DNA from: Bacteroidia bacterium
Lineage (GTDB): Bacteria; Bacteroidota; Bacteroidia; AKYH767-A; OLB10
DNA: 40,362 nucleotides
Direction of reading: 5' to 3'
Assembly (NCBI GenBank): GCA_020847635.1
Contig: JADLBQ010000011.1
Span: 1-40,362, forward strand
This document shows, one piece after another, positions 12,863 to 40,088 of this stretch. Under the pieces are notes generated by a model that was not told the DNA's origin, made no database searches, and was given only the letters and a program-made list of their open reading frames with translations. Made by a program: the position numbers and the translations under genes. Every line of letters begins with the position of its first letter. Position 1 is the first letter of the stretch.

Positions 12863-12877
12863 TGTCAAGTTATTATG

Positions 12878-13841: not shown

Positions 13842-13849
13842 CAAACCTA
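13842..13849 (-). promoter_or_regulatory. Putative promoter of the methyltransferase gene (TAGGTTTG)
   Basis: TAGGTTTG on the minus strand, a perfect TAnnTTTG match, ending 5 nt before the ATG at 13836. Transcription would begin about 2 nt before that ATG. Confidence 0.5.
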
Positions 13850-18472: not shown

Positions 18473-18480
18473 CGAAGTTA
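18473..18480 (-). promoter_or_regulatory. Putative promoter of the hydrolase-like/dnaG operon (TAACTTCG)
   Basis: TAACTTCG on the minus strand, one base off TAnnTTTG, ends 7 nt before the ATG at 18465. Similar TAnnTTCG boxes precede four other genes in this window. Confidence 0.4.
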
Positions 18481-18619
18481 GGCAGATTATTTCCCACATC
18501 CGGATTTCGTCATCCGGGTTAAGATTTTTTTAAATTCTATTCATAGCTGCTTTGCTTTCTCAGGTGTGTGCAGAAGGCAGCTTTGAAAATATCATCTTCA
18601 ACGGGCATTCAGGATACCG

Positions 18620-18627
18620 TACCTTTG
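18620..18627 (+). promoter_or_regulatory. Putative promoter of lipB (TACCTTTG), next to the start codon
   Basis: TACCTTTG is a perfect TAnnTTTG box and has the same sequence as rRNA promoter P1. It ends 4 nt before the lipB ATG, so transcription should begin about one base before the start codon. Confidence 0.55.
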
Positions 18628-18631
18628 CTTC

Positions 18632-19339
18632 ATGCAACATGTAATATTTCGTCAGCTCGGAAGAATCAGATTCTGTGATGCATGGCAGCTGCAGGAACAA
18701 TTGTTAACTGAAATTGCAGAAAAAAGGAAGTTGGGAATAGATCAAAATGATCCATTACATTATTTTCTGCTTTGTGAACATGAACCGGTTTTCACTTTAG
18801 GCAAAAGCGGCAAACCCGATCACTTGCTGGCCTCACCTCAGCTACTGAACAATAAGGGGATTGAATTCTATCATATCAACCGGGGAGGAGATATAACTTT
18901 TCACGGCCCGGGTCAATGGGTTGGTTATCCGATTCTTGATCTCGATTATTTTTTTCATGATATACACCGGTATGTTAATTATCTGGAAGAAACAATCATT
19001 CTGACCTTAAAGGAATTCGGCATCAGGGGCGAAAGAATTAAGGGGCAAACAGGAGTCTGGATTGATACAACTCAGCCTGCAACAGCCAGGAAAATCTGTG
19101 CTTTTGGAGTTCGCTGCTCACGATGGATAACCATGCATGGATTTGCACTTAATGTAAATACCAGCCTTGAAAATTTTAATTTAATTGTACCTTGTGGAAT
19201 CAGGGATAAGTCTGTTACCTCTATGCAGAATGAATTGGGTAAGGAAGTCAATATGCACCAGGTTGAAGAATCCATTAAGCGAAATTTTGAAAAAGTGTTC
19301 AACTGCATTATTACCAAAAGTGATAAAATTGAAATATGA
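18632..19339 (+). CDS. lipB: Lipoyl(octanoyl) transferase LipB
   Basis: 235 residues. The acyl-binding signature NRGGDITFHGPGQWVGYP (83-100) is complete. The catalytic lysine is K154 in ARKICAFGVRC and the catalytic cysteine is C188 in IVPCGI. The HGFALNVN motif (169-176) is also present. LipB moves octanoate from acyl carrier protein to lipoate-dependent enzymes, after which LipA inserts sulfur. lipA is not in the window. The start is the only ATG that keeps the family N-terminus, and the promoter lies so close that the mRNA is predicted to be leaderless. The stop overlaps the next gene by 4 nt (ATGA), so the two are translationally coupled. Confidence 0.96.
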   Translation: MQHVIFRQLGRIRFCDAWQLQEQLLTEIAEKRKLGIDQNDPLHYFLLCEHEPVFTLGKSGKPDHLLASPQLLNNKGIEFYHINRGGDITFHGPGQWVGYPILDLDYFFHDIHRYVNYLEETIILTLKEFGIRGERIKGQTGVWIDTTQPATARKICAFGVRCSRWITMHGFALNVNTSLENFNLIVPCGIRDKSVTSMQNELGKEVNMHQVEESIKRNFEKVFNCIITKSDKIEI

Positions 19340-20466
19340 AAAAATTTATAAATGGATTCCTGATAATTCTTGTTTTGTTAAATGCAGGGTTATTGTTAAC
19401 CGGTAAGTTTTATTACTGGAAGGCACTTGTGTATAATTTTGTTGATATTGATGATTTGAATTTATTCCCGTACCGGACAATCGAAAACGGTAAGCCTCAG
19501 CCTTGGGTATTAGCAGCAGGATATAATCAAACGGAAATGACGGAGAAACTAAAACAGGAACTTGAAGATTTTGAATCTGTAGCCTACCTGGTGATTAAGG
19601 AGGATTCAATCATTTTGGAAAAATACTGGGAAGGTTATTCTGACTCTTCTTATTCGAATTCATTTAGTATGGCAAAGAGCGTTATTGGTATTCTTACGGG
19701 AATTGCTATTGATGAAGGGAAAATCAGGAGTATCAATGAGCCGGTCGGAGATTTTATTGAAGAGTTTAATACTCCTCCAAATAATAAAATCACAATTTAT
19801 CATTTATTAACGATGAGTGCTGAACTGAACTGGGATGAAAGCTATAGCAGCCTGACTTCACCAACTACCGAAGCCTATTATGGCAGGGAACTCAGAAAAC
19901 AAATGCTGAGGTTAAGAAATGCAGGTCCTTTAGGGAGTAACTTTAATTATCAAAGTTCATGTACTGCCTTGCTGAGCTTTATTATCAGAAAAGTAACCGG
20001 GCAAACAGTCAGTGATTATGCCTCGGATAAACTCTGGAAACCACTGGGAATGCAATCGGAGGCACGCTGGAGCCTTGATCATCCTGGCGGAGATGAAAAA
20101 GCTTATTGCTGCATCTACAGCAATGCCCGTGATTTTGCCCGAATCGGTCAACTTTATCTTGACTCTGGTCGGTGGAATGGTAAACAGATTGTATCAGAAT
20201 CGTATGTATTGCAATCGATCCTTCCGGCTAAAACCATTGATAATGGTAAACCTAATGAAGTTTATGGATATCACTGGTGGATTGGAACCTTTGGCGGTAA
20301 ACATGTTTATTATGCTCGTGGTATTCTGGGACAGTATATTTTTGTTATACCAGAGGAAAAAATGATAATTGTCCGGTTGGGTCATAAGCGGGATAAAGAC
20401 AGTGAAGGGAATTTACGTGATGCAGAAATTTATATCAGTGAGACAATCAAGATGTTTGTTGAATGA
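19336..20466 (+). CDS. Serine hydrolase of the beta-lactamase / penicillin-binding protein family (class C-like)
   Basis: 376 residues with an N-terminal membrane anchor (about 5-24). The active-site motif SxxK is S111-M-A-K114, and the second motif YxS is Y205-Q-S207. The third region is YGYHWWIGTFGG. The pattern is that of the esterase/DD-peptidase/AmpC superfamily, acting in the periplasm. The substrate is unknown; such enzymes are often D-aminopeptidases or esterases rather than true beta-lactamases. All three catalytic regions are intact. The ATG overlaps the lipB stop by 4 nt. The functional link to lipoylation is not obvious and may reflect genome compaction. Confidence 0.88.
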   Translation: MKKFINGFLIILVLLNAGLLLTGKFYYWKALVYNFVDIDDLNLFPYRTIENGKPQPWVLAAGYNQTEMTEKLKQELEDFESVAYLVIKEDSIILEKYWEGYSDSSYSNSFSMAKSVIGILTGIAIDEGKIRSINEPVGDFIEEFNTPPNNKITIYHLLTMSAELNWDESYSSLTSPTTEAYYGRELRKQMLRLRNAGPLGSNFNYQSSCTALLSFIIRKVTGQTVSDYASDKLWKPLGMQSEARWSLDHPGGDEKAYCCIYSNARDFARIGQLYLDSGRWNGKQIVSESYVLQSILPAKTIDNGKPNEVYGYHWWIGTFGGKHVYYARGILGQYIFVIPEEKMIIVRLGHKRDKDSEGNLRDAEIYISETIKMFVE

Positions 20467-20520
20467 ATGCCGGAAGCAAAAGCCGGACTTTTTCAGTCAA
20501 ATTTTTTATTATTGCTAACT

Positions 20521-20925
20521 ATGCTTCGCGATATTCCGGAACAGGTTGTTGATAACATTGCAATGGCAGTTTTGCCCTCAGAGGATGAAAGTGGTAAACG
20601 TGAGTGGGGTGTTTATCTGATAAATATGAAAGAGACACCAATAAAAAATGTTCTGATAGCAAGTAAAGGCTACGGTAAACATAAGGGTGAGGATGTTGTA
20701 ACCTCAACCCTCAGGCATTTTTTTGAACTTATTTCACCTCGGGAATTTGTGAAAGTTGAACCCATAATTGAAAATCTGTTTGGGCTGAACAATGAGTACT
20801 GGGTCAGTTTCTACATCGGCAATGAAATCTTTGAACGTAAATTTCTTTTTCTGCCTGAAACAATCAATGAAGAATATTTTTCAACCGTACCTCTAATTGA
20901 CAAACCGGGTGTTGTAATCCGATAA
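20521..20925 (+). CDS. Conserved hypothetical protein, small soluble
   Basis: 134 residues from the ATG at 20521. An in-frame ATG at 20467 directly follows the previous stop, but the added residues (AKAGLFQSNFLLLLT) look non-coding. Recognisable features are an acidic N-terminus (MLRDIPEQVVDNIAMAVLP), the segment WGVYLINMKETPI, the motif SKGYG, then TSTLRHFFELI and FGLNNEYWVSFYIGN. From memory, similar short proteins occur widely in Bacteroidota and have sometimes been mislabelled as a phenylalanyl-tRNA synthetase subunit. It has no signal peptide or membrane segment. It lies 54 nt after the serine hydrolase, probably in the same transcript. Function is unknown. Confidence 0.75.
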   Translation: MLRDIPEQVVDNIAMAVLPSEDESGKREWGVYLINMKETPIKNVLIASKGYGKHKGEDVVTSTLRHFFELISPREFVKVEPIIENLFGLNNEYWVSFYIGNEIFERKFLFLPETINEEYFSTVPLIDKPGVVIR

Positions 20926-20938
20926 ATAATTGCTCTAA

Positions 20939-22540
20939 TTATGGATGATTTATTCTTTCCTCATTTACTTTTATCTTTCTGCTAATCAACTGAAGAATAT
21001 CAGGATCAACCGGGAAATGTCTTGCTGAAGCAGCATGTAAATCTTCAAGCGATTTTTTGAAATTGCCCATGGTGTAATAGGTCAGTGCCCGGTTGTAATA
21101 AATGCTGCCGTCTTTATCATCAATCCTGAGGGCTTCATGGTAATCCTTCAGCGATTCATTAAACTGTTTCAGCTTACCATAAGCATTGGCACGGTTAACC
21201 AGCACATTTTTATCAGACGGATTGAAACGGATTGCATTTGAATAGTATTGAATGGCCTTATTGTACTGCTGCAGTTTATCATACGATACACCCATGTTGT
21301 AACTGGCAGCCCATTGATTTGGATTGAGGTTGTAAGCATGACTCCATATTGAGAACTCACTCTTCCATACAGGAACTTGTTTTACATTCAGCAAAAGAAA
21401 AACTACCCCCATCAAGATCAGAATGTACCGGATGTATGATTTATTCTTTCCGGTTAGCCATAAGGAAGCAACAGTAATGGCTGCCCCGGTCATTCCAAAA
21501 TAAGCATAGCGATCGGCAGTCACTGAAAACCGTTGATATTCAAATGCAATAATCCCGGAAGACGGAAGTAAACCAATCAGAAATACAGCAATTCCGGCAG
21601 CTATAAAGGGTTGCTTTTTATATATTCTGAGCAGGCCAACAAGACCTCCCGAAAAAATTAAAGTGTAGAAGTAAGGAAGAAATGAATGGATCAATTCAGA
21701 AGGTGTGATTCCATAGCATGGAGATAATTGGAACGGAAATAAAATTTTAAGACAGTAAAAGGTCAGTGAATAACAGGCAATGAGCGGGTTCAGAAGAAAT
21801 GATACCGAAACGGCTTTCCAGTCCGGAGAAAGATGACCGGGAGTTATGATTAGGATGGGGAGCATTAAAATGAACCAGGGCCAGATTCCTTTTAAACTTA
21901 TTTTCAGTTTTTCAGGATAGAAAAATGCGGAAATAACAGGAATCATCACGGGTAGAACAATTACAGAGGGTTTGCTGAGCAGGGCAGGAATGAAAAGCAA
22001 TGTTGCAAACAGGTAATTGTTAGAATTGCGAAACCGGCGGATGGTCTCTGTTCTTTGTAATTCTCGGATAAACAAGTTTAATGATGCAAGAGAAAAGAAA
22101 GTTGCCAGCAACCCTCTGAACTCAGAGATCCAGACTACACTTTCAACCTGGAGCGGATGCATTGTAAAACACAAGGCTCCTGTAAGTGCAGCATCAACAT
22201 TTCCCAAGAGGTGATCCAGCAGAAAAAAAAGTAAAATCACATTAATACAATGAATCAACAGGTTAGCTAGGTGAAACCACGAAGGCTTTAATGGAGCTTC
22301 CCCTTTACCTGAAGAAATCAGCTTAACGAGGTACCAGCCCGTATAGGCAACAGGGATGTACATACCTCCCGGATTGTCCCAGATAGCTTTAAGCCTGCCT
22401 TGCATGAAATTTTCATTTGCTGTCAGATGTGAACGTTCATCATCCCAGACAAATGGGTAGCTGATTGCCCTGCCGAACAGGATAAAGGTGACTGCTATCA
22501 GAATCAGTGGGTAAATACGCTTCCTGGTCGAATACGTCAT
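20939..22540 (-). CDS. Multi-pass membrane protein with C-terminal TPRs, TMTC / O-mannosyltransferase-like (GT-C fold)
   Basis: 533 residues. The first ~370 form about ten membrane helices with GT-C features: the early acidic motif VWDDE (31-35) after the first helix, and HPLQVESVVWISEFRGLLATFF, a hallmark of TMTC-type proteins. Residues ~390-505 hold three tetratricopeptide repeats (for example ASYNMGVSYDKLQQYNKAIQ, VNRANAYGKLKQFNESLKDY and YYNRALTYYTMGNFKKSLED). In animals TMTC proteins O-mannosylate secreted proteins. Bacterial members are thought to be polyprenol-phosphate-sugar-dependent glycosyltransferases, but their acceptors are unknown. Here a role in glycosylating envelope or exported proteins is inferred. 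A weak TAATCTTG box overlaps the end of the upstream relic. Confidence 0.8.
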   Translation of the reverse strand: MTYSTRKRIYPLILIAVTFILFGRAISYPFVWDDERSHLTANENFMQGRLKAIWDNPGGMYIPVAYTGWYLVKLISSGKGEAPLKPSWFHLANLLIHCINVILLFFLLDHLLGNVDAALTGALCFTMHPLQVESVVWISEFRGLLATFFSLASLNLFIRELQRTETIRRFRNSNNYLFATLLFIPALLSKPSVIVLPVMIPVISAFFYPEKLKISLKGIWPWFILMLPILIITPGHLSPDWKAVSVSFLLNPLIACYSLTFYCLKILFPFQLSPCYGITPSELIHSFLPYFYTLIFSGGLVGLLRIYKKQPFIAAGIAVFLIGLLPSSGIIAFEYQRFSVTADRYAYFGMTGAAITVASLWLTGKNKSYIRYILILMGVVFLLLNVKQVPVWKSEFSIWSHAYNLNPNQWAASYNMGVSYDKLQQYNKAIQYYSNAIRFNPSDKNVLVNRANAYGKLKQFNESLKDYHEALRIDDKDGSIYYNRALTYYTMGNFKKSLEDLHAASARHFPVDPDILQLISRKIKVNEERINHP

Positions 22541-22559
22541 TCAATTAGATACTGCAAGA

Positions 22560-22805
22560 TTAAGAATAACTTCCCATTGGGTTTCCCTTATGCAGTTCAA
22601 TGATTGATAAGATTGGTTTGCAAAGTTCTGCAAGATTGATGAAAATCTGAAATGATTCCTTAGGCTGACCGGTATATTCCTGCTTAATGAAACCCGGGTG
22701 GATATGTAATTAAGCCAGTCTCTTTAGTAACCGGTCACAAGCCTCCAATTGAATAGAAACTTTCACATGTAATTGTTCGTTCAGGTCGCTTCTGGAATAC
22801 CTCAT
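22560..22805 (-). pseudogene. Degraded short-chain dehydrogenase (SDR) fragment
   Basis: An 82-codon frame from the ATG at 22805 is broken by TAA at 22710-22712. It reads MRYSRSDLNEQLHVKVSIQL ... then, after the stop, LHIHPGFIKQEYTGQPKES ... GNPMGSYS. The order recalls the second half of CsgA/C-factor-like SDRs, where YxxSKxALN is followed by about 25 residues, then HPGxVKT, then a P-ES helix. In the first part the catalytic YxxxK lysine is replaced (YSRSD). The Rossmann N-terminal half is missing. I call it a relic. The resemblance is by eye and not proven. Confidence 0.4.
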
Positions 22806-22836
22806 AATTGGAATTGGGTACAGCACAATTCTAAAA

Positions 22837-22844
22837 CAAATTTA
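22837..22844 (-). promoter_or_regulatory. Promoter-like box before the SDR relic (TAAATTTG)
   Basis: TAAATTTG on the minus strand is a perfect TAnnTTTG match, 31 nt before the relic's ATG. There is no TTG at the expected distance. It may be a chance AT-rich match. Confidence 0.25.
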
Positions 22845-23241
22845 TCAAATATCCGATCTTTTAAAAAGCTCTTAGCTGCTCATAAGTGCTCTTCTGCTCA
22901 ATCCTGATCAGATCGGCTATCCGCTGCTTATAACATTAGCCGGAAACATTCAAAAATACATGGGATGCTTAATAATCAAGATAATCAAGGGTACGCTTTG
23001 TTCTCCGGATTCTTATTTTAGACAGAAAAGATTCGAGGACTCTATTAAGAATGATTCCCTGGAATTTTTAGAAAGTAGATCTGAATTCTCTGAAATGCAA
23101 GGTTAGTTATAATCGGTAAGCTTGTTAAAACCGGCTATTCTATGTCTGATTTAAATTCTTTAAAACATCAGTTAAAACATTGGTTTTATTATTCTGCACA
23201 TCCTATTTTTGCATTATCAGTCTCTGAACACCCAAAACTAT

Positions 23242-23249
23242 TATATTTG
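23242..23249 (+). promoter_or_regulatory. Putative promoter of the DUF349 gene (TATATTTG)
   Basis: TATATTTG is a perfect TAnnTTTG box, 16 nt before the ATG at 23266. A minus-strand match, TAGTTTTG, occupies 23233-23240, one base away, forming a back-to-back pair. Confidence 0.5.
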
Positions 23250-23265
23250 AAGAATAAGAAATAAT

Positions 23266-25143
23266 ATGGAAGTAAATCGAGAAGAACAACAGCCGGGAAA
23301 CCAACAACCCTTAGCAGAAGAGCAGGATTCTGCAGAACAGGAGTTAGTGGCTATTACTGGGCATGCAACAGACTCTGAAGATGAATCGGAGCCAGGTTTA
23401 GATGAGGCTGTCAGTTACCGTGAACTTACCAAAGAACAACTGCTTAATGAGTACAGGCAGCTTGCTGAAACCGATATGACAGAAATCTTGACGGTTAAAA
23501 ACAAAATTGCTGCAGTTGAAGATGCGTTCAAACTTCTACTGCAACACGAAAGGCAGCATGAGACTGAGGTCGAGAACGAACAGGATGAAGCTACTGGAGA
23601 AGAAGAGGATACTAAGAGAAAAAAGCATGATCCGCTGGCTGATCAGTTTTTTGAATTTCAGAAAATTATTAGGAATAAAAAAAATGATTTTAACAATGCT
23701 CAGGAAAGGGAAAGAGAACAGAACCTGGTAATTAAACGGGAACTTCTTGAAAACCTGAAAAGCATAATTCAGAATGAGGAGGATCTGCAGAAAGCTTTTA
23801 ATGCATTCCATGAAATAAGAGATAAATGGAGCAATACAGGCATTGTGCCTTTTAATGAAGCTCAGGATATTCAGTTAAATTACCGGCATCTTGTAAATAA
23901 ATTTTATGAGTTTATAAAGATTAACCGGGAACTTCAGGAACTGGACTGGAAAAAAAATCTTGAACTGAAAATTAAGATCTGTGAAGAAGCAGAAGCTTTA
24001 CACTTTGAATCATCCGTGAAAACTGCATTAGATAAACTTACTATGCTTAACATGCGCTGGCATGAAGCTGGACCGGTAGCACGTGATAAAAAAACAGAAA
24101 TTTTTGAGCGATTTAAAGCTGCAGCAGATGCAATTCATAAAAAACGAAAAGAACAGATTGAACAGCTAAAATTACAATGGGCCGATAATGAAGCAAAGAA
24201 GAATGAATTGATTGATCAGGTTGCTAAGATTGAAATACCGGAACCGGCCACCTCGGCCAACTGGCGAAAAATTAATGAAGAACTTGAAGCAATTCAATCT
24301 GCATGGAAGCATACCGGAAGAACAGAAAAAGTAAAAAATGACGAACTGTGGGAACGATTTAGAGCTGCCAGTGAAGTCATTTATAAAAAACGAAAAGAAT
24401 TTTACTCCGATCGCAGAAAAGAATATCAGATTAATCTGCAGAAGAAAAATGATATCTGCTCAAGGGCTGAAGCACTCCTTAATTCGATTGATTTAAAATC
24501 AGCATCGGCAGATATGAGAAAATTGACAGAAGAATGGAAGCAGACAGGACATGTTCCGGGTAAGTTTGCTGACAAGATTTGGGAACGTTTTCGGAAAGCA
24601 AAGGACTCCTTGTACGAGAAAAGAAAAAGCTTTTTTGCAGAAGCGGAAAAACAATTTGAAGATAACCTTGAGAAGAAAACAGGTCTGATTGAAAGAATTG
24701 AATCCTTTGAATTAACTGGAAATAATAAAGAGGATTTTGAACAACTCAGAGGGTTTCAATATGAGTGGTCTGAAATCGGGATGGTTCCTGCAGCTAAAAA
24801 AAATGAAGTTTACGAACGGTATAAGAAGGCAATTGATTCCTTGTTTGATAAACTGAGAATCAGTGAAAAGGAACGTTCAGTGTTGAGATTTAAAGACCGG
24901 ATTGATCACCTTAAAACCTCAGCTGACGGGAAAAGTAAGATGAGAGAAGAAGAGAGAGTCTTACACAATAAAATCTCTCATCTCAAAAGCGAGGTGAATA
25001 CACTGGAAAACAATATTGGTTTTTTTGCCAAGTCTAAAAATGCAGATCAGATAAAAAAGGATTTTGAAGATAAAATTCTGAAAGCAAAAAATGAATTGGA
25101 AAAACTCAGAAAGCAACTTGAAATGATTAAAAGTGCCAAATGA
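23266..25143 (+). CDS. DUF349 repeat protein, coiled and highly charged
   Basis: 625 residues, acidic in the first ~130 and then strongly lysine/glutamate-rich and helical. About five DUF349-type repeats follow one another between residues ~165 and ~540. Each has a Trp, then TG or IG with a VP or related turn, and ends WERFRxAxD or similar, for example WSNTGIVPFNEAQD, WHEAGPVARDKKTEIFERFK, WKHTGRTEKVKNDELWERFR, WKQTGHVPGKFADKIWERFR and WSEIGMVPAAKKNEVYERYK. The last ~90 residues are a predicted coiled coil. There is no signal peptide. DUF349 proteins are widespread in Bacteroidota and their function is not established; an RNA- or ribosome-related role is only a guess. The gene is monocistronic and convergent with frr. 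Confidence 0.88.
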   Translation: MEVNREEQQPGNQQPLAEEQDSAEQELVAITGHATDSEDESEPGLDEAVSYRELTKEQLLNEYRQLAETDMTEILTVKNKIAAVEDAFKLLLQHERQHETEVENEQDEATGEEEDTKRKKHDPLADQFFEFQKIIRNKKNDFNNAQEREREQNLVIKRELLENLKSIIQNEEDLQKAFNAFHEIRDKWSNTGIVPFNEAQDIQLNYRHLVNKFYEFIKINRELQELDWKKNLELKIKICEEAEALHFESSVKTALDKLTMLNMRWHEAGPVARDKKTEIFERFKAAADAIHKKRKEQIEQLKLQWADNEAKKNELIDQVAKIEIPEPATSANWRKINEELEAIQSAWKHTGRTEKVKNDELWERFRAASEVIYKKRKEFYSDRRKEYQINLQKKNDICSRAEALLNSIDLKSASADMRKLTEEWKQTGHVPGKFADKIWERFRKAKDSLYEKRKSFFAEAEKQFEDNLEKKTGLIERIESFELTGNNKEDFEQLRGFQYEWSEIGMVPAAKKNEVYERYKKAIDSLFDKLRISEKERSVLRFKDRIDHLKTSADGKSKMREEERVLHNKISHLKSEVNTLENNIGFFAKSKNADQIKKDFEDKILKAKNELEKLRKQLEMIKSAK

Positions 25144-25301
25144 GCAATTCCGGATCCTTTATTTGAAGTCCTTGTAGTGGATGATGCCGTCCCCTATTGA
25201 TTATTTACTGACAATATCAGCCCTTCTGAAAGATTGCAGAGGTAATGTGAAGAGCAGAAAACGAATAGTGATTTTGTAATCAATCTTCCCTGCTCACTCC
25301 T

Positions 25302-25865
25302 CTAAACAGTCATAATTTCTTTTTCTTTTTGCTCCAGGTGGTTGTCAATTTTTTTTATAATGGAATCAACAGCATGCTGAACTTTTGTTTCGGCATCTTT
25401 AGCCATGTCTTCCGGTAGGCCTGATTTCTGGTGACGTTTAATTGCTTCAAGTGCTTCACGCCTGCTGTTTCGAATTACAATTTTTGCCTGTTCGCCTTCC
25501 TGTTTGGTTCTCTTTACCAACTCTTTTCTTCGTTCTTCAGTGAGCGGAGGGATGTTAATGCGGATAATGGTACCGTCATTCTGAGGGTTAAATCCAAGAT
25601 TAGCAGCCTGAATCGCTTTTTCAATCACAGCAAGCATGGATTTCTCCCAGGGCTGAATTACCAGTGTTCGTGCATCCGGAGTATTCACATTGGCAACCTG
25701 AAAGAGCGGAGTACTGTTGCCATAATAATCAACATGAATGCTTTCAAGAATCTGTGGATTGGCTTTGCCGGCTCTGATTTTTGCCAGTTCATGTTCAAGA
25801 TAGGTTATGGCTTTTTGAGCCTGCCCGTCAAGAGTACCTAATATTTGTTTCACTTCTTCACTCAT
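25302..25865 (-). CDS. frr: Ribosome recycling factor
   Basis: 187 residues, the standard size. Family signatures are LAKIRAGKANPQILESIHVDYYG (split across residues ~28-50), PLFQVANVNTPDARTLVIQPW, INIPPLTEERRKELVK, and the C-terminal helix KKIDNHLEQKEKEIM. Frr splits the post-termination ribosome with EF-G. In many bacteria frr follows pyrH, but here it follows a protein kinase gene with a 48 nt gap, so partial co-transcription is possible. The product is cytoplasmic. Nothing in the sequence is abnormal. Confidence 0.97.
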   Translation of the reverse strand: MSEEVKQILGTLDGQAQKAITYLEHELAKIRAGKANPQILESIHVDYYGNSTPLFQVANVNTPDARTLVIQPWEKSMLAVIEKAIQAANLGFNPQNDGTIIRINIPPLTEERRKELVKRTKQEGEQAKIVIRNSRREALEAIKRHQKSGLPEDMAKDAETKVQHAVDSIIKKIDNHLEQKEKEIMTV

Positions 25866-25913
25866 AATTTCAGGTTTTAGCAGGTGTAAAATTAAGAATA
25901 TGTGTCTAATAAA

Positions 25914-26870: not shown

Positions 26871-26951
26871 AATATCGGTTTATCCGGCTGTAATTTCATT
26901 GATAGCTTAAATCATTCCCTGGCTTACTGAAGTCTGTTCGGATGTGAGTTG

Positions 26952-26959
26952 TATTTTCG
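26952..26959 (+). promoter_or_regulatory. Putative promoter of the GT2 gene (TATTTTCG)
   Basis: TATTTTCG, one base off TAnnTTTG, ends 12 nt before the ATG at 26972. It would drive the GT2-gldC pair. No matching TTG lies 19 nt upstream. Confidence 0.35.
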
Positions 26960-26971
26960 GCTCCCAAAATT

Positions 26972-28614: not shown

Positions 28615-28657
28615 CTGCTGCCAGAACGGTTTTCAGAAAGAATCTGTGGTTAAACTT

Positions 28658-32119: not shown

Positions 32120-32222
32120 GCAGCCGGCCAGACTAAGAATCGGAGTAAAACTAAAACAAATTAACCTGCTCAGAATACAACGGCTATGATGCCTGGCCAT
32201 TGTAACACATTGAAACTTAATT

Positions 32223-32978
32223 TCAGTCAGTAATTAATTTCTCAAGCTCGTCCTGAAGTAAACGGTGTAACTTCACTTTTAACGATTCAATATCCTGGCG
32301 GGTCAATCCTTTTGTTTCAATGGGTGGAAACACAACCATTCTGGAAATGCCTGGCCTGCCGGCACTCATTCTTCTGAGAATCCCATCAGGCATTAGCTTG
32401 TAATTATCTGGATAAATCACCGGTAAAATTGGAATTTGTTTTTCGATTGCAAGTCGGAAAGCACCGTTTTTAAAACTCTTAAGCCGGGGGGTCGTTTCGG
32501 GAATGGTCCCCTCAGGGAAAATAGCTACACTGATTCCATTCTCAAGATCTTCACCTGCTCGCTGATATGCTTGATGGGATGAGATAATACTTGAGCGGTC
32601 AACAGGAATGTTCATCTCTTTAAAGAAATACCCAAACAACGGTATGTTTTTCAGTTCTGCTTTCCCCATGAAATGAAAATATTCAGGAATGGCGATATAC
32701 GTTGTTATAATATCCAGATAGGAACAATGATTCGGGCATATAATATAGGCTACACCTTTTTTGGGTTTATATCTCCAAGTTACCTGAGTGATTATGCCAC
32801 TGTTGAAAAGCATGATCCGTGCACAGATCCGATATAATGTAAAAACATGAGGGAACCAGGACTTACGCTGAAGAAGGATATAATAAAATGGATAAAATAC
32901 AATCACTACCACGGATGCATGAAGATAGAACCAGAGTCGCCATATCAGCTGTGTCATTACCCGTAAATATTTTAACAT
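32223..32978 (-). CDS. plsC: 1-acyl-sn-glycerol-3-phosphate acyltransferase (PlsC family)
   Basis: 251 residues with one or two N-terminal membrane segments (about 12-36). The catalytic NHxxxxD is N83-H84-CSYL-D89, and the second motif is FPEGTIPE (153-160), followed by KNGAFRLAIEKQIPILPVIY. These define the PlsC acyltransferase family, which adds the second acyl chain to make phosphatidic acid at the inner membrane; other substrates such as aminolipids are possible. A TATTTTCG box ends 8 nt before the ATG, so a nearly leaderless mRNA is likely. It lies 51 nt downstream of the DUF420 gene, so read-through is also possible. Confidence 0.9.
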   Translation of the reverse strand: MLKYLRVMTQLIWRLWFYLHASVVVIVFYPFYYILLQRKSWFPHVFTLYRICARIMLFNSGIITQVTWRYKPKKGVAYIICPNHCSYLDIITTYIAIPEYFHFMGKAELKNIPLFGYFFKEMNIPVDRSSIISSHQAYQRAGEDLENGISVAIFPEGTIPETTPRLKSFKNGAFRLAIEKQIPILPVIYPDNYKLMPDGILRRMSAGRPGISRMVVFPPIETKGLTRQDIESLKVKLHRLLQDELEKLITD

Positions 32979-32986
32979 AACTTAGG

Positions 32987-32994
32987 CGAAAATA
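32987..32994 (-). promoter_or_regulatory. Putative promoter of plsC (TATTTTCG)
   Basis: TATTTTCG on the minus strand, one base off TAnnTTTG, ends 8 nt before the ATG at 32978. A 14-base palindrome (CTTCACAAGTGAAG, 33000-33013) lies just upstream, between the expected -33 and -7 regions. Confidence 0.4.
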
Positions 32995-33029
32995 GTAAGC
33001 TTCACAAGTGAAGAAAAGACAATTTCAGT

Positions 33030-33566
33030 TTAAAATTGGTAATAAGGTGAAATCATCAGGTAAACAACTACTCCGGTGATAGTAACATATAACCAGATTG
33101 GCATAGCCCATCTCCCGATTGCTTTGTGCTTTTTGATCTGTTTAGTTAGTCCGAAATAAAATGAAAGGAGAACCAATGGAAGTACAACCGGAGCTAATAG
33201 AATATGGGAGCCAAGAATGAAAAGATAGTAAGGACGCAATGGATTGTCTGCCGGGAACCGGACTTCAATTCCGTAAGAATGAAAAGTAAGATATGAAATT
33301 AAAAAAAGACAGGAAAGTAGAAAGGCTGAAAAATTCAGCTTCTTATGAAGTGAAACCTTTTTCTTTCTGATCAGATAAACCGAGACCAGTAAAAGGCAAC
33401 TGCAAGATGCACTTAACACTGCGTTCAGCTTTGGTAACTCATAAACAAAACCGGGAATATGGTCTGACTTGGGTAATTCTAAAAAAACAATTACAGCTGC
33501 AACAACAGCAAGTGAAATAAAGGATATCAGCCAGTACACGCTTTTAAAACGACTCAATTTGTTCAT
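33030..33566 (-). CDS. DUF420 membrane protein, cytochrome-oxidase-assembly associated
   Basis: 178 residues with about five membrane helices. Family features include the N-terminal helix VYWLISFISLAVVAAVIVFL, a histidine in ILGSHILLAPVVLPLVLLSF, then KQIKKHKAIGRWAMPIWLYV and TGVVVYLMISPYYQF at the C-terminus. DUF420 genes often accompany sco and cytochrome oxidase genes, and a CtaM-like role in oxidase assembly has been proposed for relatives. The start overlaps the end of sco by 4 nt (ATGA), so they are translationally coupled. The conserved histidines fit heme or metal contact, but this is inference. Confidence 0.85.
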   Translation of the reverse strand: MNKLSRFKSVYWLISFISLAVVAAVIVFLELPKSDHIPGFVYELPKLNAVLSASCSCLLLVSVYLIRKKKVSLHKKLNFSAFLLSCLFLISYLTFHSYGIEVRFPADNPLRPYYLFILGSHILLAPVVLPLVLLSFYFGLTKQIKKHKAIGRWAMPIWLYVTITGVVVYLMISPYYQF

Positions 33567-34243
33567 GAACCCTTTTTCTCTTTTTGTGTTTCTGTTTCTA
33601 ATATCCGGATATCATGTATCAGCTGATTTACTTCTTCCGGGTTTGTTCCGTCATAATATCCTCGAATTCTCTTATGCGAATCAATCAGTACTAATTGTTG
33701 ACTGTGAATGAAATCACGGTTGCTGCCATCGCCATCTGAAACCGCAAGAAAATAGCTTTTGCGTGCAAGTTCATAAATATGCTTTTTATCTCCGGTAAGG
33801 AAATACCACTTGCCGGGTATTGCTCCGTAGGATTCAGCATACTGCTGTAATTTCTCCGGAGTATCGTGAACGGGATCAACCGTGTGTGAAAGTATGATTA
33901 CGTTATGATCATCCTGGTACTTATCCTGTACACGTTTTAGTTGATTGCTCATGGCAGGGCAGATGGTCTGACAGGTAGCAAAGAAAAAATCAGCAATTGC
34001 TATTTTATTATTCAGAATTTCCTGAGTAACAGTATCACCCCGGTTAGTTATTAAGTTAAAATCCTTGAGTGAATGATAAATAGTATCAATTGCTTTCGAA
34101 ACCGGATTATGAACTGTTTCTTTAGGACCATAAATTTCCAGTTCTTGCGGTTTTTCTTTACTCATAATTAAAACTAGGTAGAAGATAAGTGCAGCGAAGA
34201 AAAGGCTCCCCAATATGAGAGTGCTTTTAAATGAGGTATTCAT
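33563..34243 (-). CDS. SCO family copper chaperone (Sco1/SenC/PrrC)
   Basis: 226 residues from the ATG at 34243; the longer frame needs a TTG at 34255. One N-terminal membrane anchor (about 8-28) is followed by a thioredoxin-like domain. The copper-binding CxxxC is C91-QTI-C95 in FFFATCQTICPAMSNQ, and the distal histidine is H180 in RDFIHSQQLVLID. The protein also has ILSHTVDPVHDTPE, which is typical of the family. Sco delivers copper to the CuA site of cytochrome c oxidase at the outer face of the inner membrane. It lies between ctaB and DUF420, a standard assembly cassette. A TACTTTTG box ends 9 nt before its ATG, so it may also have its own promoter. Confidence 0.93.
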   Translation of the reverse strand: MNTSFKSTLILGSLFFAALIFYLVLIMSKEKPQELEIYGPKETVHNPVSKAIDTIYHSLKDFNLITNRGDTVTQEILNNKIAIADFFFATCQTICPAMSNQLKRVQDKYQDDHNVIILSHTVDPVHDTPEKLQQYAESYGAIPGKWYFLTGDKKHIYELARKSYFLAVSDGDGSNRDFIHSQQLVLIDSHKRIRGYYDGTNPEEVNQLIHDIRILETETQKEKKGS

Positions 34244-34252
34244 AGAATGAGA

Positions 34253-34260
34253 CAAAAGTA
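34253..34260 (-). promoter_or_regulatory. Putative promoter of sco (TACTTTTG)
   Basis: TACTTTTG on the minus strand is a perfect TAnnTTTG box, ending 9 nt before the sco ATG at 34243 and after the ctaB stop. It would allow sco-DUF420 expression independent of ctaB. Confidence 0.45.
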
Positions 34261-34331
34261 AGGCTATAAATTACAAACAACTGTTATGCTCATACTATTG
34301 TGCACAAAATATTTTATTTATTGACAAAAGA

Positions 34332-35225
34332 TCAGATCTTGTCGAGCACCAGGGCTAACATAACAAAAGGCAGGTAAATAATTGAAGCATACATCAGGTT
34401 TCTGGCATCCGTATTGGTACAATTCTTATACAGTCTAATGGAAAACCAGGTATAGATAATGGCTGATAGTGTGAGAATTATCGCTGATGTTGATCCGGTT
34501 AATCCGATTAAATAGGGAAGAAGTCCGATTGGAATTAAACAAGAGGCGTAAATAACAGCATGCAGAGCTGATGCTTTGCTTTTCCCACGCGGTGAAGGCA
34601 ATAACTTAAACCCTGCTTTTGAATAATCGTCATCCAACATCCAGGCAAGTGCCCAGAAATGTGGTAACTGCCAGAGAAACTGAATGAGAAACAAGACCAA
34701 TGCTGGTATTCCCAGTTCACCCCGGGCTGCAATCCAGCCAATTAATGGAGGCATTGCTCCGGGTACTGCTCCTACATGAACCGAAAAATAACTAACCTTT
34801 TTCATGGGTGTATAAACAAAGGCATATAGGATTAGAGCAACTATACCAAGCACAGCACTTAGAAAGTTAAGTTTTATTACTAGAACAAAAAAGCCTGATA
34901 TACCCATTAAAATGCTCAGTACTAGTGCCTCTTTTAATTGCATCCGGTTGGCCGGCAAAGGCCGGTTGTGGGTCCGTTTCATTAAAGCATCGGTGTGTCG
35001 TTCATATATTTCATTTAAACTATTTGCTGAGGCGGTAATCAAAATTCCTCCGGCCGATAACCAGAAAAAACGAATCCAGTCAATTGATCCTTCAGCTCCC
35101 AACAGATATGCAAAGGCAGCTGAAAGAACAACAAACATCAAAAGTTTGAACTTAATCAGTAATCCGAAATCATAAACTTTACTGATGATTCCGTTAGAAA
35201 ATACTGTTGCAATTGCCTTCTTCAA
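34332..35225 (-). CDS. ctaB: Protoheme IX farnesyltransferase (heme o synthase)
   Basis: 297 residues, also called CyoE. It has about eight to nine membrane helices. The first prenyl-diphosphate Mg site is N71-EIY-E75-RHT-D79 in NSLNEIYERHTDALMKRTHN, followed by RPLP. The second is DDDYSKAGFKLLP. The enzyme adds a farnesyl group to heme b to give heme o, needed for heme-copper oxidases. The start is a TTG at 35225: no in-frame ATG lies upstream, and the first internal Met is near residue 30, inside a membrane helix. A TATCTTCG box precedes it by 18 nt. It is the first gene of the assembly cassette with sco and DUF420. No oxidase subunits are in the window. Confidence 0.93.
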   Translation of the reverse strand: MKKAIATVFSNGIISKVYDFGLLIKFKLLMFVVLSAAFAYLLGAEGSIDWIRFFWLSAGGILITASANSLNEIYERHTDALMKRTHNRPLPANRMQLKEALVLSILMGISGFFVLVIKLNFLSAVLGIVALILYAFVYTPMKKVSYFSVHVGAVPGAMPPLIGWIAARGELGIPALVLFLIQFLWQLPHFWALAWMLDDDYSKAGFKLLPSPRGKSKASALHAVIYASCLIPIGLLPYLIGLTGSTSAIILTLSAIIYTWFSIRLYKNCTNTDARNLMYASIIYLPFVMLALVLDKI

Positions 35226-35243
35226 CTTTTGCCAAAAACATGG

Positions 35244-35251
35244 CGAAGATA
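35244..35251 (-). promoter_or_regulatory. Putative promoter of ctaB (TATCTTCG)
   Basis: TATCTTCG on the minus strand, one base off TAnnTTTG, ends 18 nt before the TTG start of ctaB. No TTG lies at the usual distance upstream, so support is moderate. Confidence 0.35.
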
Positions 35252-35378
35252 AGACAGCTTACATGCTTGTAGAAAAAATTGCTGAAATGAGGTTTAGTTA
35301 AACTCTAAAATACCCGAAGGTCAGGGCCTTTTTTATTTATTAAAACATTACTCTGTATTAATGTTTCAATCTATTCAC

Positions 35379-35408
35379 TTACGGAAACTCTTTAATAGTT
35401 TTTCGTAA
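35379..35408 (-). terminator. Imperfect stem-loop after the T9SS cargo gene
   Basis: TTACGGAAACT (35379-35389) pairs with AGTTTTTCGTAA (35397-35408) with one bulged base and a 7-base loop, about 40 nt past the stop of the gene ending at 35449. There is no clear U-run after it, so its role as a terminator is weak. Confidence 0.25.
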
Positions 35409-35448
35409 ACCGGTATTCGGCTTTTTGTTGGATAATGGCAGAATAGGA

Positions 35449-36816
35449 TTACTCAATGATTGCAAACCTTAACTTTCTGTTTAAATCAGCACCAGTAACA
35501 TGTATTGAATAAAGGCCACATTGCAACCCGGTATTCAGCCTGATTGTTCGGTCATGTAAATATTCCCTTGAATTGACCCTGCGTCCACGAACATCATAGA
35601 TCTCTATCTTTATTTTGATGTAATCTTTTGAAATATTTAATTCAGGATTTGTACCCGGAGAACCGGTAATAAATAAGGACCAGCTTTGGGCTACTTCCTC
35701 GATTCCAACTGTTGAAATACAGACTGTATCACTTTCTACTGAGCATCCCATGGTGTCAGATAAGGTAAGTCCGTAGCAGCCGGGTAGAGTAATTGTAAAC
35801 TGTGGATTATTGGCTCCCAATAGCATTATCCCATCTACAGTCCATTGATACAGGTAGAGCGGATTATTGATAGATGAAATCAGTAATGGATTGTTATTCT
35901 GAATTACAGGCGTTGGAATCAGGTCAGCAAGAAAAATCAATACAGAGTCTGTATCTGAAATGGAGCAATCTCCATCAGCGCTTAAGGTGAACAGAATATT
36001 ACCGGTTTCTCCCGGCCCCGGAATGTAGCTTGTCACAGCTGATGCTGAATTGATAATTGTGCCTGTTCCACCGCTCCATTGTAAGCCGGTGGCTCCTGCT
36101 GTGTGCCCATGTAACTCAATTACTGAGCCATAACAAAAAGTAGTGTCTTTGCCGGCATTGACATTAAAATTTGTAACCGGAGCCTGACATCCGTAATTCA
36201 GATAGGTAGCTGTCCCATCAGGCGCAAAATCTACAAATGCTCCGTCATTTTCATAGTTTGCTCCTCCAAAATACCCGAATTGATTAATCAGCTTTGCCCT
36301 GTCATAAGTAACCGTGTCACTACATCCTGAAGGTGCTGAAAAAGTAAGAATGGTTGTCCTTAATCCTTGTGAAACATTGTAGTTGGCAAAATGCCCGGAT
36401 GTGTTTCCAGAACATTGAAACAATACATAAACTGTATCATTCAGATTTGCAAATGAATTGGAGGTCAGACTTACAGATTGACTGGTAATCAATATCACTT
36501 TTGAATTTGCCGGCAAAATTCCGTTAACTGGTTCAATCAGGTGGCCGCAACCCTGAATGTTTGAATTAAAGAAAGCAATTGTTGATGCAGTTCCTCCGTC
36601 CTGGCACAATCCCAGCCAACTGTTGTTTGGCCATTGAACCGTTAAAAAAGCGGTGTTTAGGGGACTTCCTCCCACTGAGAAGGTTAGCATCTCATTTTCA
36701 CCTTCAACAGGCCCGCAGGCATCTACCAATATTCTGTTGATTTCAAAACAAGCTTGTGAATGGCTTTGAAAACTGATTAAAATAATTGTTAGAAAAATAA
36801 GTATGTGTTTTCTCAT
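35449..36816 (-). CDS. Secreted T9SS cargo protein with Bacteroidota surface-protein domain
   Basis: 455 residues with a signal peptide (about 1-20, ending SHSQ). The N-terminal domain (about 21-215) opens ACFEINRILVDACG and continues EGENEMLTF, a lamin-tail-like pattern often seen in Bacteroidota secreted proteins, with several cysteines. A middle part (about 220-290) resembles an Ig-like or PKD-like repeat (AGKDTTFCYGSVIELHG). The last ~75 residues look like a T9SS type A sorting domain (KIEIYDVRGRRVNSREY, LNTGLQCGLYSIHV). The protein is probably exported to the surface by T9SS. No catalytic motif is seen, so adhesion or a structural role is a guess. A TATTTTTG box precedes it by 20 nt. Confidence 0.78.
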   Translation of the reverse strand: MRKHILIFLTIILISFQSHSQACFEINRILVDACGPVEGENEMLTFSVGGSPLNTAFLTVQWPNNSWLGLCQDGGTASTIAFFNSNIQGCGHLIEPVNGILPANSKVILITSQSVSLTSNSFANLNDTVYVLFQCSGNTSGHFANYNVSQGLRTTILTFSAPSGCSDTVTYDRAKLINQFGYFGGANYENDGAFVDFAPDGTATYLNYGCQAPVTNFNVNAGKDTTFCYGSVIELHGHTAGATGLQWSGGTGTIINSASAVTSYIPGPGETGNILFTLSADGDCSISDTDSVLIFLADLIPTPVIQNNNPLLISSINNPLYLYQWTVDGIMLLGANNPQFTITLPGCYGLTLSDTMGCSVESDTVCISTVGIEEVAQSWSLFITGSPGTNPELNISKDYIKIKIEIYDVRGRRVNSREYLHDRTIRLNTGLQCGLYSIHVTGADLNRKLRFAIIE

Positions 36817-36836
36817 CGTGAGATTGATTAGCTAAG

Positions 36837-36844
36837 CAAAAATA
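36837..36844 (-). promoter_or_regulatory. Putative promoter of the T9SS cargo gene (TATTTTTG)
   Basis: TATTTTTG on the minus strand is a perfect TAnnTTTG box, 20 nt before the ATG at 36816. A TTG lies 17 nt upstream of the box, slightly shorter than the 19-nt spacing of the rRNA promoters. Confidence 0.5.
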
Positions 36845-36891
36845 GCAGGTCTTTCTTAATTCAATATAATAGAATGCCTGATTAAAAAAAA

Positions 36892-37812
36892 TTATCGAAA
36901 ATGATCCTCATTCCTGAAAATACTCAAATAGGAATCGTACCGGCTTCCGGCAATTATTTTATTTATAAGCGGAATAACGGCACATCCTGCTTCATGGGTG
37001 TGTGTACAATCAGAAAAATAACAGTCCTTGCCAAAAGCAAAAATTTCAGGAAAAAAATGAGATACCTCTTTTGGATTAAATTCAAGTGTTCCAAACTCCC
37101 GGATTCCTGGTGTATCCGTAATAAAACCTCCACCCGGCAAACAGTACATCTGTGCAAAGGTCGTTGTATGTTTACCTTTTAAATGTTGTTCTGATAATAC
37201 TGCGGTTTTCAAATTCATTCCTGGAATCAGAGTATTAATAATGGTTGATTTCCCAACACCTGAATGACCGCCAAAAAGTGTGATTTTCCCTTTTAGAAAT
37301 TCTTTTAATTCGGTTAAGGTCGTTTGGTCAAAAGCCGTAACTTTAAAACAACGATAACCGACTAACTGATAAAGCTCAATAAGCCTATCAGCATAACAGT
37401 TGACTTCACTATCGTAAAGGTCTGACTTGTTGAAGATTAACCCGGCTTTAATCGAGTAAGCTTCTGCTGTTGCCAGAAAACGGTCAATGAACCCTGTTGA
37501 GGTTCGTGGATAGACAGGTGTAACTACCACCATGGCCAAGTCAAGATTTGAAGCCAGAATATGTGCCTGCTTTGAGAGGTTTTTTGATTTTCGGATGATG
37601 TAGTTCTTTCTTGGAAAAACATCAGTTATCCATCCGGATCCTTCTTGAGCATCAACTTCCAGTTTTACGTTGTCTCCAACAACCACCGGATTAGTGGTGT
37701 CAATTCCTTTCAATCTGAACCTGCCTCTTATCCTGCCACTAAAAATTTTCCCTTCACTCCAGATCTCATAGTTAGTCCCTGTTGATTTAATGACAGTCCC
37801 CGTTATCTCCAT
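36892..37812 (-). CDS. rsgA: Ribosome small-subunit-dependent GTPase A
   Basis: 306 residues. An N-terminal OB-fold (about 1-70) is followed by the circularly permuted GTPase order typical of the family: G4 FNKSD (127-131) comes before G1 GHSGVGKST (182-190) and G3 DTPG (233-236). The C-terminal zinc site is C264-x4-C269-x-H271-x5-C277. RsgA helps the late maturation of the 30S subunit. A perfect TAACTTTG box ends 4 nt before the ATG, predicting a leaderless mRNA like that of lipB. The gene is divergent from mtgA; the two start codons are 68 nt apart. Confidence 0.96.
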   Translation of the reverse strand: MEITGTVIKSTGTNYEIWSEGKIFSGRIRGRFRLKGIDTTNPVVVGDNVKLEVDAQEGSGWITDVFPRKNYIIRKSKNLSKQAHILASNLDLAMVVVTPVYPRTSTGFIDRFLATAEAYSIKAGLIFNKSDLYDSEVNCYADRLIELYQLVGYRCFKVTAFDQTTLTELKEFLKGKITLFGGHSGVGKSTIINTLIPGMNLKTAVLSEQHLKGKHTTTFAQMYCLPGGGFITDTPGIREFGTLEFNPKEVSHFFPEIFAFGKDCYFSDCTHTHEAGCAVIPLINKIIAGSRYDSYLSIFRNEDHFR

Positions 37813-37816
37813 GGTG

Positions 37817-37824
37817 CAAAGTTA
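37817..37824 (-). promoter_or_regulatory. Putative promoter of rsgA (TAACTTTG), next to the start codon
   Basis: TAACTTTG on the minus strand is a perfect TAnnTTTG box. Only CACC separates it from the ATG at 37812. The arrangement copies that of lipB. Confidence 0.55.
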
Positions 37825-37880
37825 GGCCCTAAAGAAATTTCAGTTCACCTTCCTTTCTTTGCAATGGAAATTAGATTATT

Positions 37881-38636
37881 TTGAAAAAAATTTTAAGAAA
37901 GACGGTAAAAATTATTCTTAAAGCCTTTGGTTGGTTTTTTCTGGTCAGTGTAGCTTCAGTCATTCTTTTCCGGTTTATTCCTGTCCCCTTTACACCACTG
38001 ATGGTAATCAGGCTTTATCAACAAGCTGTTGATCCGGATATTAAAATGCGATGCACTAAAAGCTGGAAATCACTTGATAAGATATCGGTGAATATCCAAA
38101 AGGCATTCGTTGCAGCTGAAGACCAGAAATTTTTTGAGCATTTTGGATTTGATCGTGAAGCAATTAATAAGGCAATGAAGTACAATGAAAAGCATAAAGG
38201 TAGACGTGTTAAAGGAGCCAGTACCATTACTCAGCAAACTGCCAAGAACCTCTTCCTTTGGCCTTCCCGTAACTGGGTGCGTAAAGGCCTGGAAGTTTAT
38301 TTTACATTCCTTATTGAAACATTCTGGTCAAAAAAAAGGATCCTTGAGGTTTACATGAATATCATTGAAACCGGTAAAGGAATCTATGGTGTGGAAGCGG
38401 CATCAATAGAATATTTTAAAAAGCCTGCCTTAAAAATAAATGCCTCCCAGGCTGCACTCCTGGCAGCCTGCAACCCCAATCCGCGAAGATGGTCACCTAC
38501 ACATCCAACACCTTACATAAAAAGAAAACAAGCCTGGATTCTCAGACAAATGTTTCATATTGATTGGCCAGTTGATAATCAGGAAAAAAATATTCAAAAA
38601 CCAAAAGCAAAACCGGCTCTTATAATTGGATTCTGA
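37881..38636 (+). CDS. mtgA: Monofunctional biosynthetic peptidoglycan transglycosylase
   Basis: 251 residues with one N-terminal membrane anchor (about 12-33). GT51 motifs are complete: FVAAEDQKFFEHFGFD (76-91, with catalytic Glu E80), KGASTITQQTAKNLFLWPSR, RKGLEVYFTFLIETFWSKKR, and ILEVYMNIIETGKGIYGVEA. The enzyme polymerises lipid II into glycan strands at the inner membrane. The start is a TTG at 37881: it is preceded by an AT-rich stretch, and the nearby ATG at 37864 is out of frame. A TTTCTTTG box, one base off TAnnTTTG, lies 19 nt upstream. Its 3' end overlaps the convergent small outer-membrane protein gene by 43 nt. Confidence 0.94.
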   Translation: MKKILRKTVKIILKAFGWFFLVSVASVILFRFIPVPFTPLMVIRLYQQAVDPDIKMRCTKSWKSLDKISVNIQKAFVAAEDQKFFEHFGFDREAINKAMKYNEKHKGRRVKGASTITQQTAKNLFLWPSRNWVRKGLEVYFTFLIETFWSKKRILEVYMNIIETGKGIYGVEAASIEYFKKPALKINASQAALLAACNPNPRRWSPTHPTPYIKRKQAWILRQMFHIDWPVDNQEKNIQKPKAKPALIIGF

Positions 38637-39136
38637 TAGGGAGAATAGCGTTCCTCAATAACATTATCAAGTAATTCAACTTCAAAAGCAGACCGGTTGC
38701 CAATCATTTGCCGGTAACCACCTCCAATAAATAAACTCGGAATATTCTTTCTGGAGAATTTGTTATAATTAAAATCATCCGGTACTTCCATATTAAGAAT
38801 TTCATATTCAACATGAGCAAATAAATTCTCAATCAAATAATATTTGCTGAATACCCTCCCTCCAAAAATATTGGTTGAATATTTATAGTAAATATCATCA
38901 ACACTATAATAGATATAAGTCATTCCTATGCCGGCAATCAGCTGATCCGTAACTCGATACCCGACATTCGGAGAAATATCAATAAAGGTGTAACTTCCAA
39001 ACTGCAAACCCAGGTTTCCTCCAAATACAAGCCTCTGTCCAAATGTTTGATCCTTTACTTCCTGAGGTTGGGCTGATGAATTGGAGCAATAAAAGAAAAT
39101 GTACGAATTAAGAATTAAAACTATGATCCGGCTCAT
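38594..39136 (-). CDS. Small outer-membrane beta-barrel-like protein
   Basis: 180 residues from the ATG at 39136; a longer frame needs a TTG at 39157. The N-terminus MSRIIVLILNSYIFFYCSNSSAQPQ is a signal peptide, possibly with a cysteine-linked variant. Short beta strands alternate, such as RLVFGGNLGLQFGSYTFIDI, PNVGYRVTDQLIAGIGMTYI and IPSLFIGGGYRQMIG, and the C-terminus is RAGFAFGF with a final Phe typical of outer-membrane barrels. It is an OmpA/OmpW-like small barrel with about eight strands; function unknown. A TATCTTTG box lies 18 nt upstream, back-to-back with the SDR promoter. The last 43 nt overlap mtgA in antisense. Confidence 0.75.
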   Translation of the reverse strand: MSRIIVLILNSYIFFYCSNSSAQPQEVKDQTFGQRLVFGGNLGLQFGSYTFIDISPNVGYRVTDQLIAGIGMTYIYYSVDDIYYKYSTNIFGGRVFSKYYLIENLFAHVEYEILNMEVPDDFNYNKFSRKNIPSLFIGGGYRQMIGNRSAFEVELLDNVIEERYSPYQNPIIRAGFAFGF

Positions 39137-39154
39137 CTGCAAATATTGATTTGC

Positions 39155-39162
39155 CAAAGATA
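39155..39162 (-). promoter_or_regulatory. Putative promoter of the small OM protein gene (TATCTTTG)
   Basis: TATCTTTG on the minus strand is a perfect TAnnTTTG box, the same sequence as rRNA promoter P2. It ends 18 nt before the ATG at 39136 and 3 nt from the SDR box. Confidence 0.55.
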
Positions 39163-39165
39163 GAA

Positions 39166-39173
39166 TAGATTTG
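39166..39173 (+). promoter_or_regulatory. Putative promoter of the SDR gene (TAGATTTG)
   Basis: TAGATTTG is a perfect TAnnTTTG box, 9 nt before the ATG at 39183. A TTG at 39146-39148 gives a 17-nt spacer. The two boxes are nearly head-to-head, so the two promoters should compete for polymerase. Confidence 0.5.
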
Positions 39174-39970: not shown

Positions 39971-40000
39971 TTGTCAATCCAGAAAGAGAGTTTACCTTTG
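39971..40000 (+). promoter_or_regulatory. rRNA promoter P1
   Basis: TTG at 39971-39973, a 19-nt spacer, and TACCTTTG at 39993-40000, followed by CAGCCC. This is a full match to the Bacteroidota -33/-7 promoter. It shares box, spacing and the CAGCCC start region with P2. Confidence 0.8.
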
Positions 40001-40003
40001 CAG

Positions 40004-40031: not shown

Positions 40032-40088
40032 ATTTGGCAGAAAAGACTTCCAAATAATAAGTTAGTTTGAAAAAAATAATCAGAAGTG

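Follow-up and report, generated by a model that had tools for sequence, protein, structure and literature searches.

Short-gap promoter boxes in the window

The window analysed here, positions 1 to 40,362 (40,362 nucleotides, nt) of contig JADLBQ010000011.1 of a Bacteroidia bacterium (assembly GCA_020847635.1), carries seven genes whose start codons lie 4–9 nt downstream of the octamer TAnnTTTG or a close variant of it (Table 1). The octamer is the -7 box of the Bacteroidota housekeeping promoter (sigma-ABfr, -33 TTTG / -7 TAnnTTTG), and a preliminary description of this DNA had read the seven boxes as predicting leaderless or near-leaderless mRNAs. Re-reading of the window confirmed the positions given there and the gaps, defined as the number of nt between box and start codon, for all seven. 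The consensus itself holds for five of them; the boxes ahead of the hydrolase and plsC genes read TAnnTTCG. Before starts this variant occurs 12 times at gaps 14–30, against 3, 1 and 3 occurrences for three permuted boxes, and it may be a weaker variant of the box.

Table 1. Promoter boxes and associated genes in the window, with gaps and predicted leaders
Feature	Position	Strand	Box sequence	Gap (nt)	Predicted leader	Remark
lipB -7 box	18620..18627	+	TACCTTTG	4	0 nt	
lipB, lipoyl ligase A/B domain	18632..19339	+			predicted leaderless	Pfam PF21948
rsgA -7 box	37817..37824	-	TAACTTTG	4	0 nt	
rsgA	36892..37812	-			predicted leaderless	Pfam RsgA_N from residue 4
Methyltransferase -7 box	13842..13849	-	TAGGTTTG	5	0-1 nt	gene 13057-13836
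sco -7 box	34253..34260	-	TACTTTTG	9	~5 nt	gene 33563-34243
SDR -7 box	39166..39173	+	TAGATTTG	9	~5 nt	gene 39183-39902
Hydrolase box-like element	18473..18480	-	TAACTTCG	7		gene 17464-18465; TAnnTTCG, not strict
plsC box-like element	32987..32994	-	TATTTTCG	8		gene 32223-32978; TAnnTTCG, not strict
DUF349 gene -7 box	23242..23249	+		16		gene 23266-25143; leadered-class example
-7 box of gene 35449-36816	36837..36844	-		20		leadered-class example

The two smallest gaps belong to lipB and rsgA. In Flavobacterium johnsoniae 4 or 5 nt separate the -7 element from the transcription start downstream of it (PMC6847099; here and below, statements from cited papers refer to the parts of their text that were available), and because this distance includes 4 nt, a gap of 4 would correspond to an mRNA beginning with the A of its AUG. 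The leader of about 1 nt proposed earlier for lipB and rsgA needs correction on this point, since a 4-nt spacing leaves a leader of 0 nt. The lipB gene has no further in-frame ATG in its next 39 codons. In the rsgA product RsgA_N begins at residue 4, so the rsgA start codon is right. Family homologues of plsC align from residue 2-3 of the protein starting at 32978. In the SDR gene a second in-frame ATG would make the gap 15. Alongside these genes the window holds a longer-gap class, with gaps of 16, 18, 18 and 20.

Distance from box to start codon outside the window

The genome of the window comprises 2.58 Mb in 94 contigs, and the distribution of gaps was determined in 40 stretches outside the window (770 kb), which gave 580 usable genes, 400 of them first in their transcription unit. 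Starts were called by a simple script of our own that is limited to ATG, and 14 permuted boxes served as the control. The final gene caller, settled in the same step in which the histogram first appeared, yields 617 genes at 81% coding with the window included. Two earlier callers (337 genes at 58% coding and 517 genes at 74% coding) missed genes and were dropped.

Among the 400 first-in-unit genes, TAnnTTTG is enriched relative to the permuted boxes, as for a sigma-ABfr promoter, and its position is sharply defined. Fifteen strict boxes lie at gap 4, against a mean of 0.2 for the permuted boxes, followed by 3, 3, 6, 1 and 2 at gaps 5, 6, 7, 8 and 9, with a single box at gaps 0–3 and a second, broad mode at gaps of about 14–30. 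A distance histogram had been named beforehand as the test on which the reading could fail; the peak at 4–9 nt is present and sharp at 4, and the two leader classes suspected from the window recur outside it as gaps 4–9 with a spike at 4 and gaps of about 14–30. When the genome (without the window) is pooled with a same-genus genome (G001) and a Hydrotalea genome (G260), taking the nearest box within 45 nt of 192 genes, gap 4 is found 29 times, gaps 5–9 together 27 times and gaps 0–3 five times. The count at gap 4 stands against a mean of 5.4 per position at gaps 5–9 (Poisson 1e-12), so that predicted leaders of 1–5 nt are rarer per position than leaders of exactly 0.

Outside the window, genes of the short-gap class match dihydrofolate reductase, acetyl-CoA carboxylase alpha (AccA), phosphoribosyltransferase, septum formation initiator, PurH and MnmE families, as well as 2-oxoacid dehydrogenase E1 and E2, asparagine synthase, a TetR regulator and Omp28, among others. 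The class includes core genes (dihydrofolate reductase, AccA, rsgA and lipB), and no transposase or phage protein family is among its matched families outside the window.

Recurrence in related genomes

The short-gap class was compared with that of G001, the Hydrotalea genome, a family member (G009), a class member (G060) and a member of another family of the class (G081). Gaps 4–9 account for 30/101 genes with a box within 45 nt in the genome of the window, 13/47 in G001 and 13/44 in Hydrotalea, compared with 7/33 in G009, 3/18 in G060 and 1/50 in G081; Fisher tests against G081, run without gaps 0–3, yield p values between 2e-5 and 0.04. Counting instead the excess over control within 60 nt, the share with a gap of 14 or less is 0.38, 0.31 and 0.40 in the first three genomes and 0.27, 0.34 and 0.02 in G009, G060 and G081, respectively. 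We lean, by a narrow measure, towards leaderless or near-leaderless use that differs by lineage within Bacteroidia, at about 30% in the genus of the window and Hydrotalea and about 2% in the family of G081 (one genome) among genes with a strict box within 45 nt, such that a second initiation route would be a major one that is kept gene by gene. This contrast between lineages is drawn from the one comparison genome G081 together with published figures.

Whole-genome pattern counts over 61 genomes, the genome of the window and the coding background included, give 4212 occurrences at gap 3, 5221 at gap 4 and 4197 at gap 5. Gap 4 exceeds gap 3 in 41/61 of these genomes, gap 5 in 51/61 and both neighbours in 39/61. 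In a scan of 198 genomes of the phylum, judged by eye and without a tally, many genomes of other classes had no excess over the reversed pattern. In one family outside the class, f45, three genomes (G202, G171 and G194) show a gap-4 excess over the reversed pattern, with 56 versus 8 occurrences in G202; this combination of box and spacing may therefore not be limited to Bacteroidia.

Gene by gene, recurrence was followed for the short-gap genes rsgA, lipB and sco. At rsgA a strict box precedes the start by 4–9 nt in 14/24 family loci (window locus included, two of the 14 from genome G021, one before a GTG), while four of the others have a longer gap, four have no box and two could not be judged. 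At locus L228, rsgA of a family member has no ATG at its start, and a GTG follows the strict box TATATTTG at gap 4, making a leaderless GTG start possible. For lipB the sample consisted of the best 80 of more than 586 matches, many of them Chitinophagaceae with other Bacteroidetes and some Flavobacteriales, which places the genome of the window in Bacteroidota, probably close to Chitinophagales. Four homologues lacking an ATG close to the aligned start were excluded. The gap is 4 in 16/76 and 5–9 in 24/76 of these homologues, so that 40/76 fall at 4–9; 14/76 have other gaps and 22/76 have no strict box within 90 nt. On a lipB tree with 77 rows labelled by the relaxed box TAnnTTYG, 44 of them short, no fewer than 15 switches between short and other arrangements are needed, with gain and loss indistinguishable. 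How widely the short-gap arrangement recurs thus depends on the gene.

Proposed leaderless transcription and its alternatives

We propose, with a probability of roughly 0.8, that these are promoters of the housekeeping sigma factor placed such that the first transcribed nucleotide is the A of the start codon or lies a few nt ahead of it. At gap 4, RNA polymerase directed by the Bacteroidota housekeeping sigma factor would start on the A of the AUG, provided that the real start lies 4 nt after the box in this organism, and at gaps 5–9 it would start a few nt ahead of the AUG; the start codons of the short-gap genes accordingly coincide with the predicted start or follow it by a few nt. The near absence of gaps 0–3 is expected if transcription begins 4 nt after the box, because shorter gaps would leave the AUG outside the mRNA. 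Together with the spike at 4 nt and the two gap classes it supports the leaderless or near-leaderless reading of the preliminary description, which stays a prediction. Translation would then begin by direct ribosomal recognition of the 5'-terminal AUG, involving initiator tRNA and IF2 but no leader contacts. Shine-Dalgarno pairing is hardly used in Bacteroidia, in which start selection by the ribosome is not yet fully explained; a leader could then be given up at little cost.

The called ATGs might instead be wrong, with the real starts downstream and behind ordinary leaders, and we consider this improbable. Five of the 17 gap-4 genes, and others such as the SDR gene, do have a further in-frame Met within 39 codons, and the GTG and TTG starts left out of start calling point the same way, but the other 12 of the 17 offer no further in-frame ATG over that distance. 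The gap-4 count over all genes is 16 with the called starts, 15 with the most upstream ATG and 1 with the next in-frame ATG, which shows no second mode. In 9/30 short-gap proteins encoded outside the window a domain begins within residues 1–10 and near the start of its profile, and RsgA and the SDR likewise have a domain beginning within these residues. Examples are dihydrofolate reductase from residue 1, an epimerase from 2, AccA and the SDR from 4 and a CN hydrolase from 5; of the remainder outside the window, 6/30 have no Pfam match and the others have domains further in. The asparagine synthase (gap 6) starts MCGIAGF, whose Cys2 we take to be the catalytic N-terminal residue. For part of the short-gap genes, then, the start codons are fixed by the protein domains.

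Just as improbable, in our view, is that the boxes are real while the main transcripts start further upstream, the short-gap site being a secondary promoter. Thirteen of 35 short-gap genes come after a co-directional gene, as this would allow, but the other 22 are divergent from their neighbour or have no neighbour in the stretch, and chance or minor sites would not accumulate at precisely 4 nt while leaving gaps 0–3 nearly empty. We give still less weight to short leaders as a mere by-product of tight gene packing. The SDR gene and its divergent neighbour, with 46 nt between their start codons, would fit, but the median neighbour distance is 115 nt for gap 4, 109 nt for gaps 4–9 and 121.5 nt for gaps 14–45, and packing leaves the spike at 4 without a reason. 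An artefact of composition or start calling, such as a box TAA or TAG acting as in-frame stop, is very improbable: a box at gap 4 shares the reading frame of the ATG, and the count at gap 7, which keeps that frame, is somewhat elevated as well, but boxes without a stop of their own (TAC/TAT) still number 8 at gap 4 (window included) and three permuted boxes keeping TAnn give none there.

Several observations weigh against promoters that start transcription at or near the AUG. The transcription starts given here are predictions from box spacing, and the mapped starts of Flavobacterium and Bacteroides include few short leaders (PMC6847099, PMC7366714, PMC9723704). In the stretches read, G009 and G060 have one gap-4 gene each, and in 22/61 genomes gap 4 is not above both neighbours. 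A short gap at sco is found in only 2/24 family loci (the window and a same-genus locus with gap 7), 12 of the 24 being hard to judge for want of an ATG at the aligned start. Our start caller is imperfect, having placed plsC at 32813, 165 nt too far in. No -33 TTG enrichment stands out in either gap class, and the two classes are not clearly told apart by their nucleotides at -4 to -1; both often have a pyrimidine at -1, and the reduced share of A at -3 among gap-4 genes is a figure from n=31. Finally, the two free box positions avoid G at gap 4 (14/17) and not at gaps 5–9 (12/18), compared with 59/73 at gaps 10–40 and 206/323 inside genes, all of these being raw counts with no significance figure.

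Set beside known systems, the promoters share the -7 box of the Bacteroidota housekeeping promoter and differ from its typical form in showing no evident -33 element and in having a box that often stands 4–9 nt from the start codon; in F. johnsoniae, too, the -33 element is much less evident than the -7 box (PMC6847099). Published maps report 3.7% of 5' untranslated regions below 10 nt in B. thetaiotaomicron, where transposase or phage proteins are part of the named examples (PMC7366714), 5.5% leaderless in F. psychrophilum (PMC9723704) and leaders of at most 10 nt in 13% of cases among F. johnsoniae genes with a box (PMC6847099). The 38% of excess boxes within 60 nt that have a gap of 14 or less here (a leader of about 10 nt or less) lies above these Bacteroides and Flavobacterium values, although it is a predicted share that is raised by the restriction to strict boxes within 60 nt.

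A comparative-genomics study raised the possibility that biased base usage around -20 to -10 marks leaderless mRNAs in Bacteroidetes, and cited reports of a high fraction in this group (PMC5397173); as far as the available text goes, that work dealt with averaged biases in four Bacteroidetes species and called the matter unsettled, whereas here a named box lies at an exact distance from single genes. A 2011 survey based on Pribnow-like boxes placed leaderless genes in 1/37 Bacteroidetes/Chlorobi genomes (2.4%), allowed for an underestimate in Bacteroidetes and, in the part available, thought high hidden leaderless shares unlikely (PMC3160421). For this lineage the present counts speak against that doubt. 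The leaderless genes of Actinobacteria and Deinococcus-Thermus in the same survey resemble those described here as a second initiation class that is recognised by a promoter element whose distance to the start codon is fixed, but were found through a Pribnow-like box (PMC3160421). On the side of translation, Bacteroidia ribosomes sequester the anti-Shine-Dalgarno tail (PMC9976891), IF2 has been discussed together with leaderless mRNA (PMC10783764), and gene-start work has assigned AT-rich non-canonical ribosome sites to the group (PMC9581028).

Leaderless mRNA is thus already known in the phylum at low mapped rates, and no report of an abundant leaderless class in this lineage was found by title or abstract start in the open-licence literature. 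What is apparently new is the 4-nt spike, the apparent abundance in combination with the Bacteroidota -7 box, and the contrast between lineages, which together make an RNA-end map worthwhile. The data suggest a more frequent use of bare message ends for translation here than the published Bacteroides and Flavobacterium maps show. If so, these mRNAs, as a sizeable leaderless class with gene-by-gene recurrence, would form a natural set with which to probe whether recognition of a 5'-terminal AUG is a regular route in Bacteroidia, and TAnnTTTG followed by 4 nt and an ATG would serve annotation as a strong start-codon cue.

Three further features of the window were observed. Upstream of the SDR gene, a pair of divergent strict -7 boxes is separated by 3 bp (39155-39162 on the minus strand and 39166-39173 on the plus strand), and within this 39155-39173 pair the upstream part of each promoter overlies the transcribed region of the other. 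A tRNA match on the minus strand (12878-12959) overlaps the first 27 nt of the open reading frame 11501-12904, and the true start of this frame is therefore probably further in. Strict boxes within 39993-40118 lie 254 and 136 nt ahead of a 16S rRNA match starting at 40255 and are probable tandem rRNA promoters.

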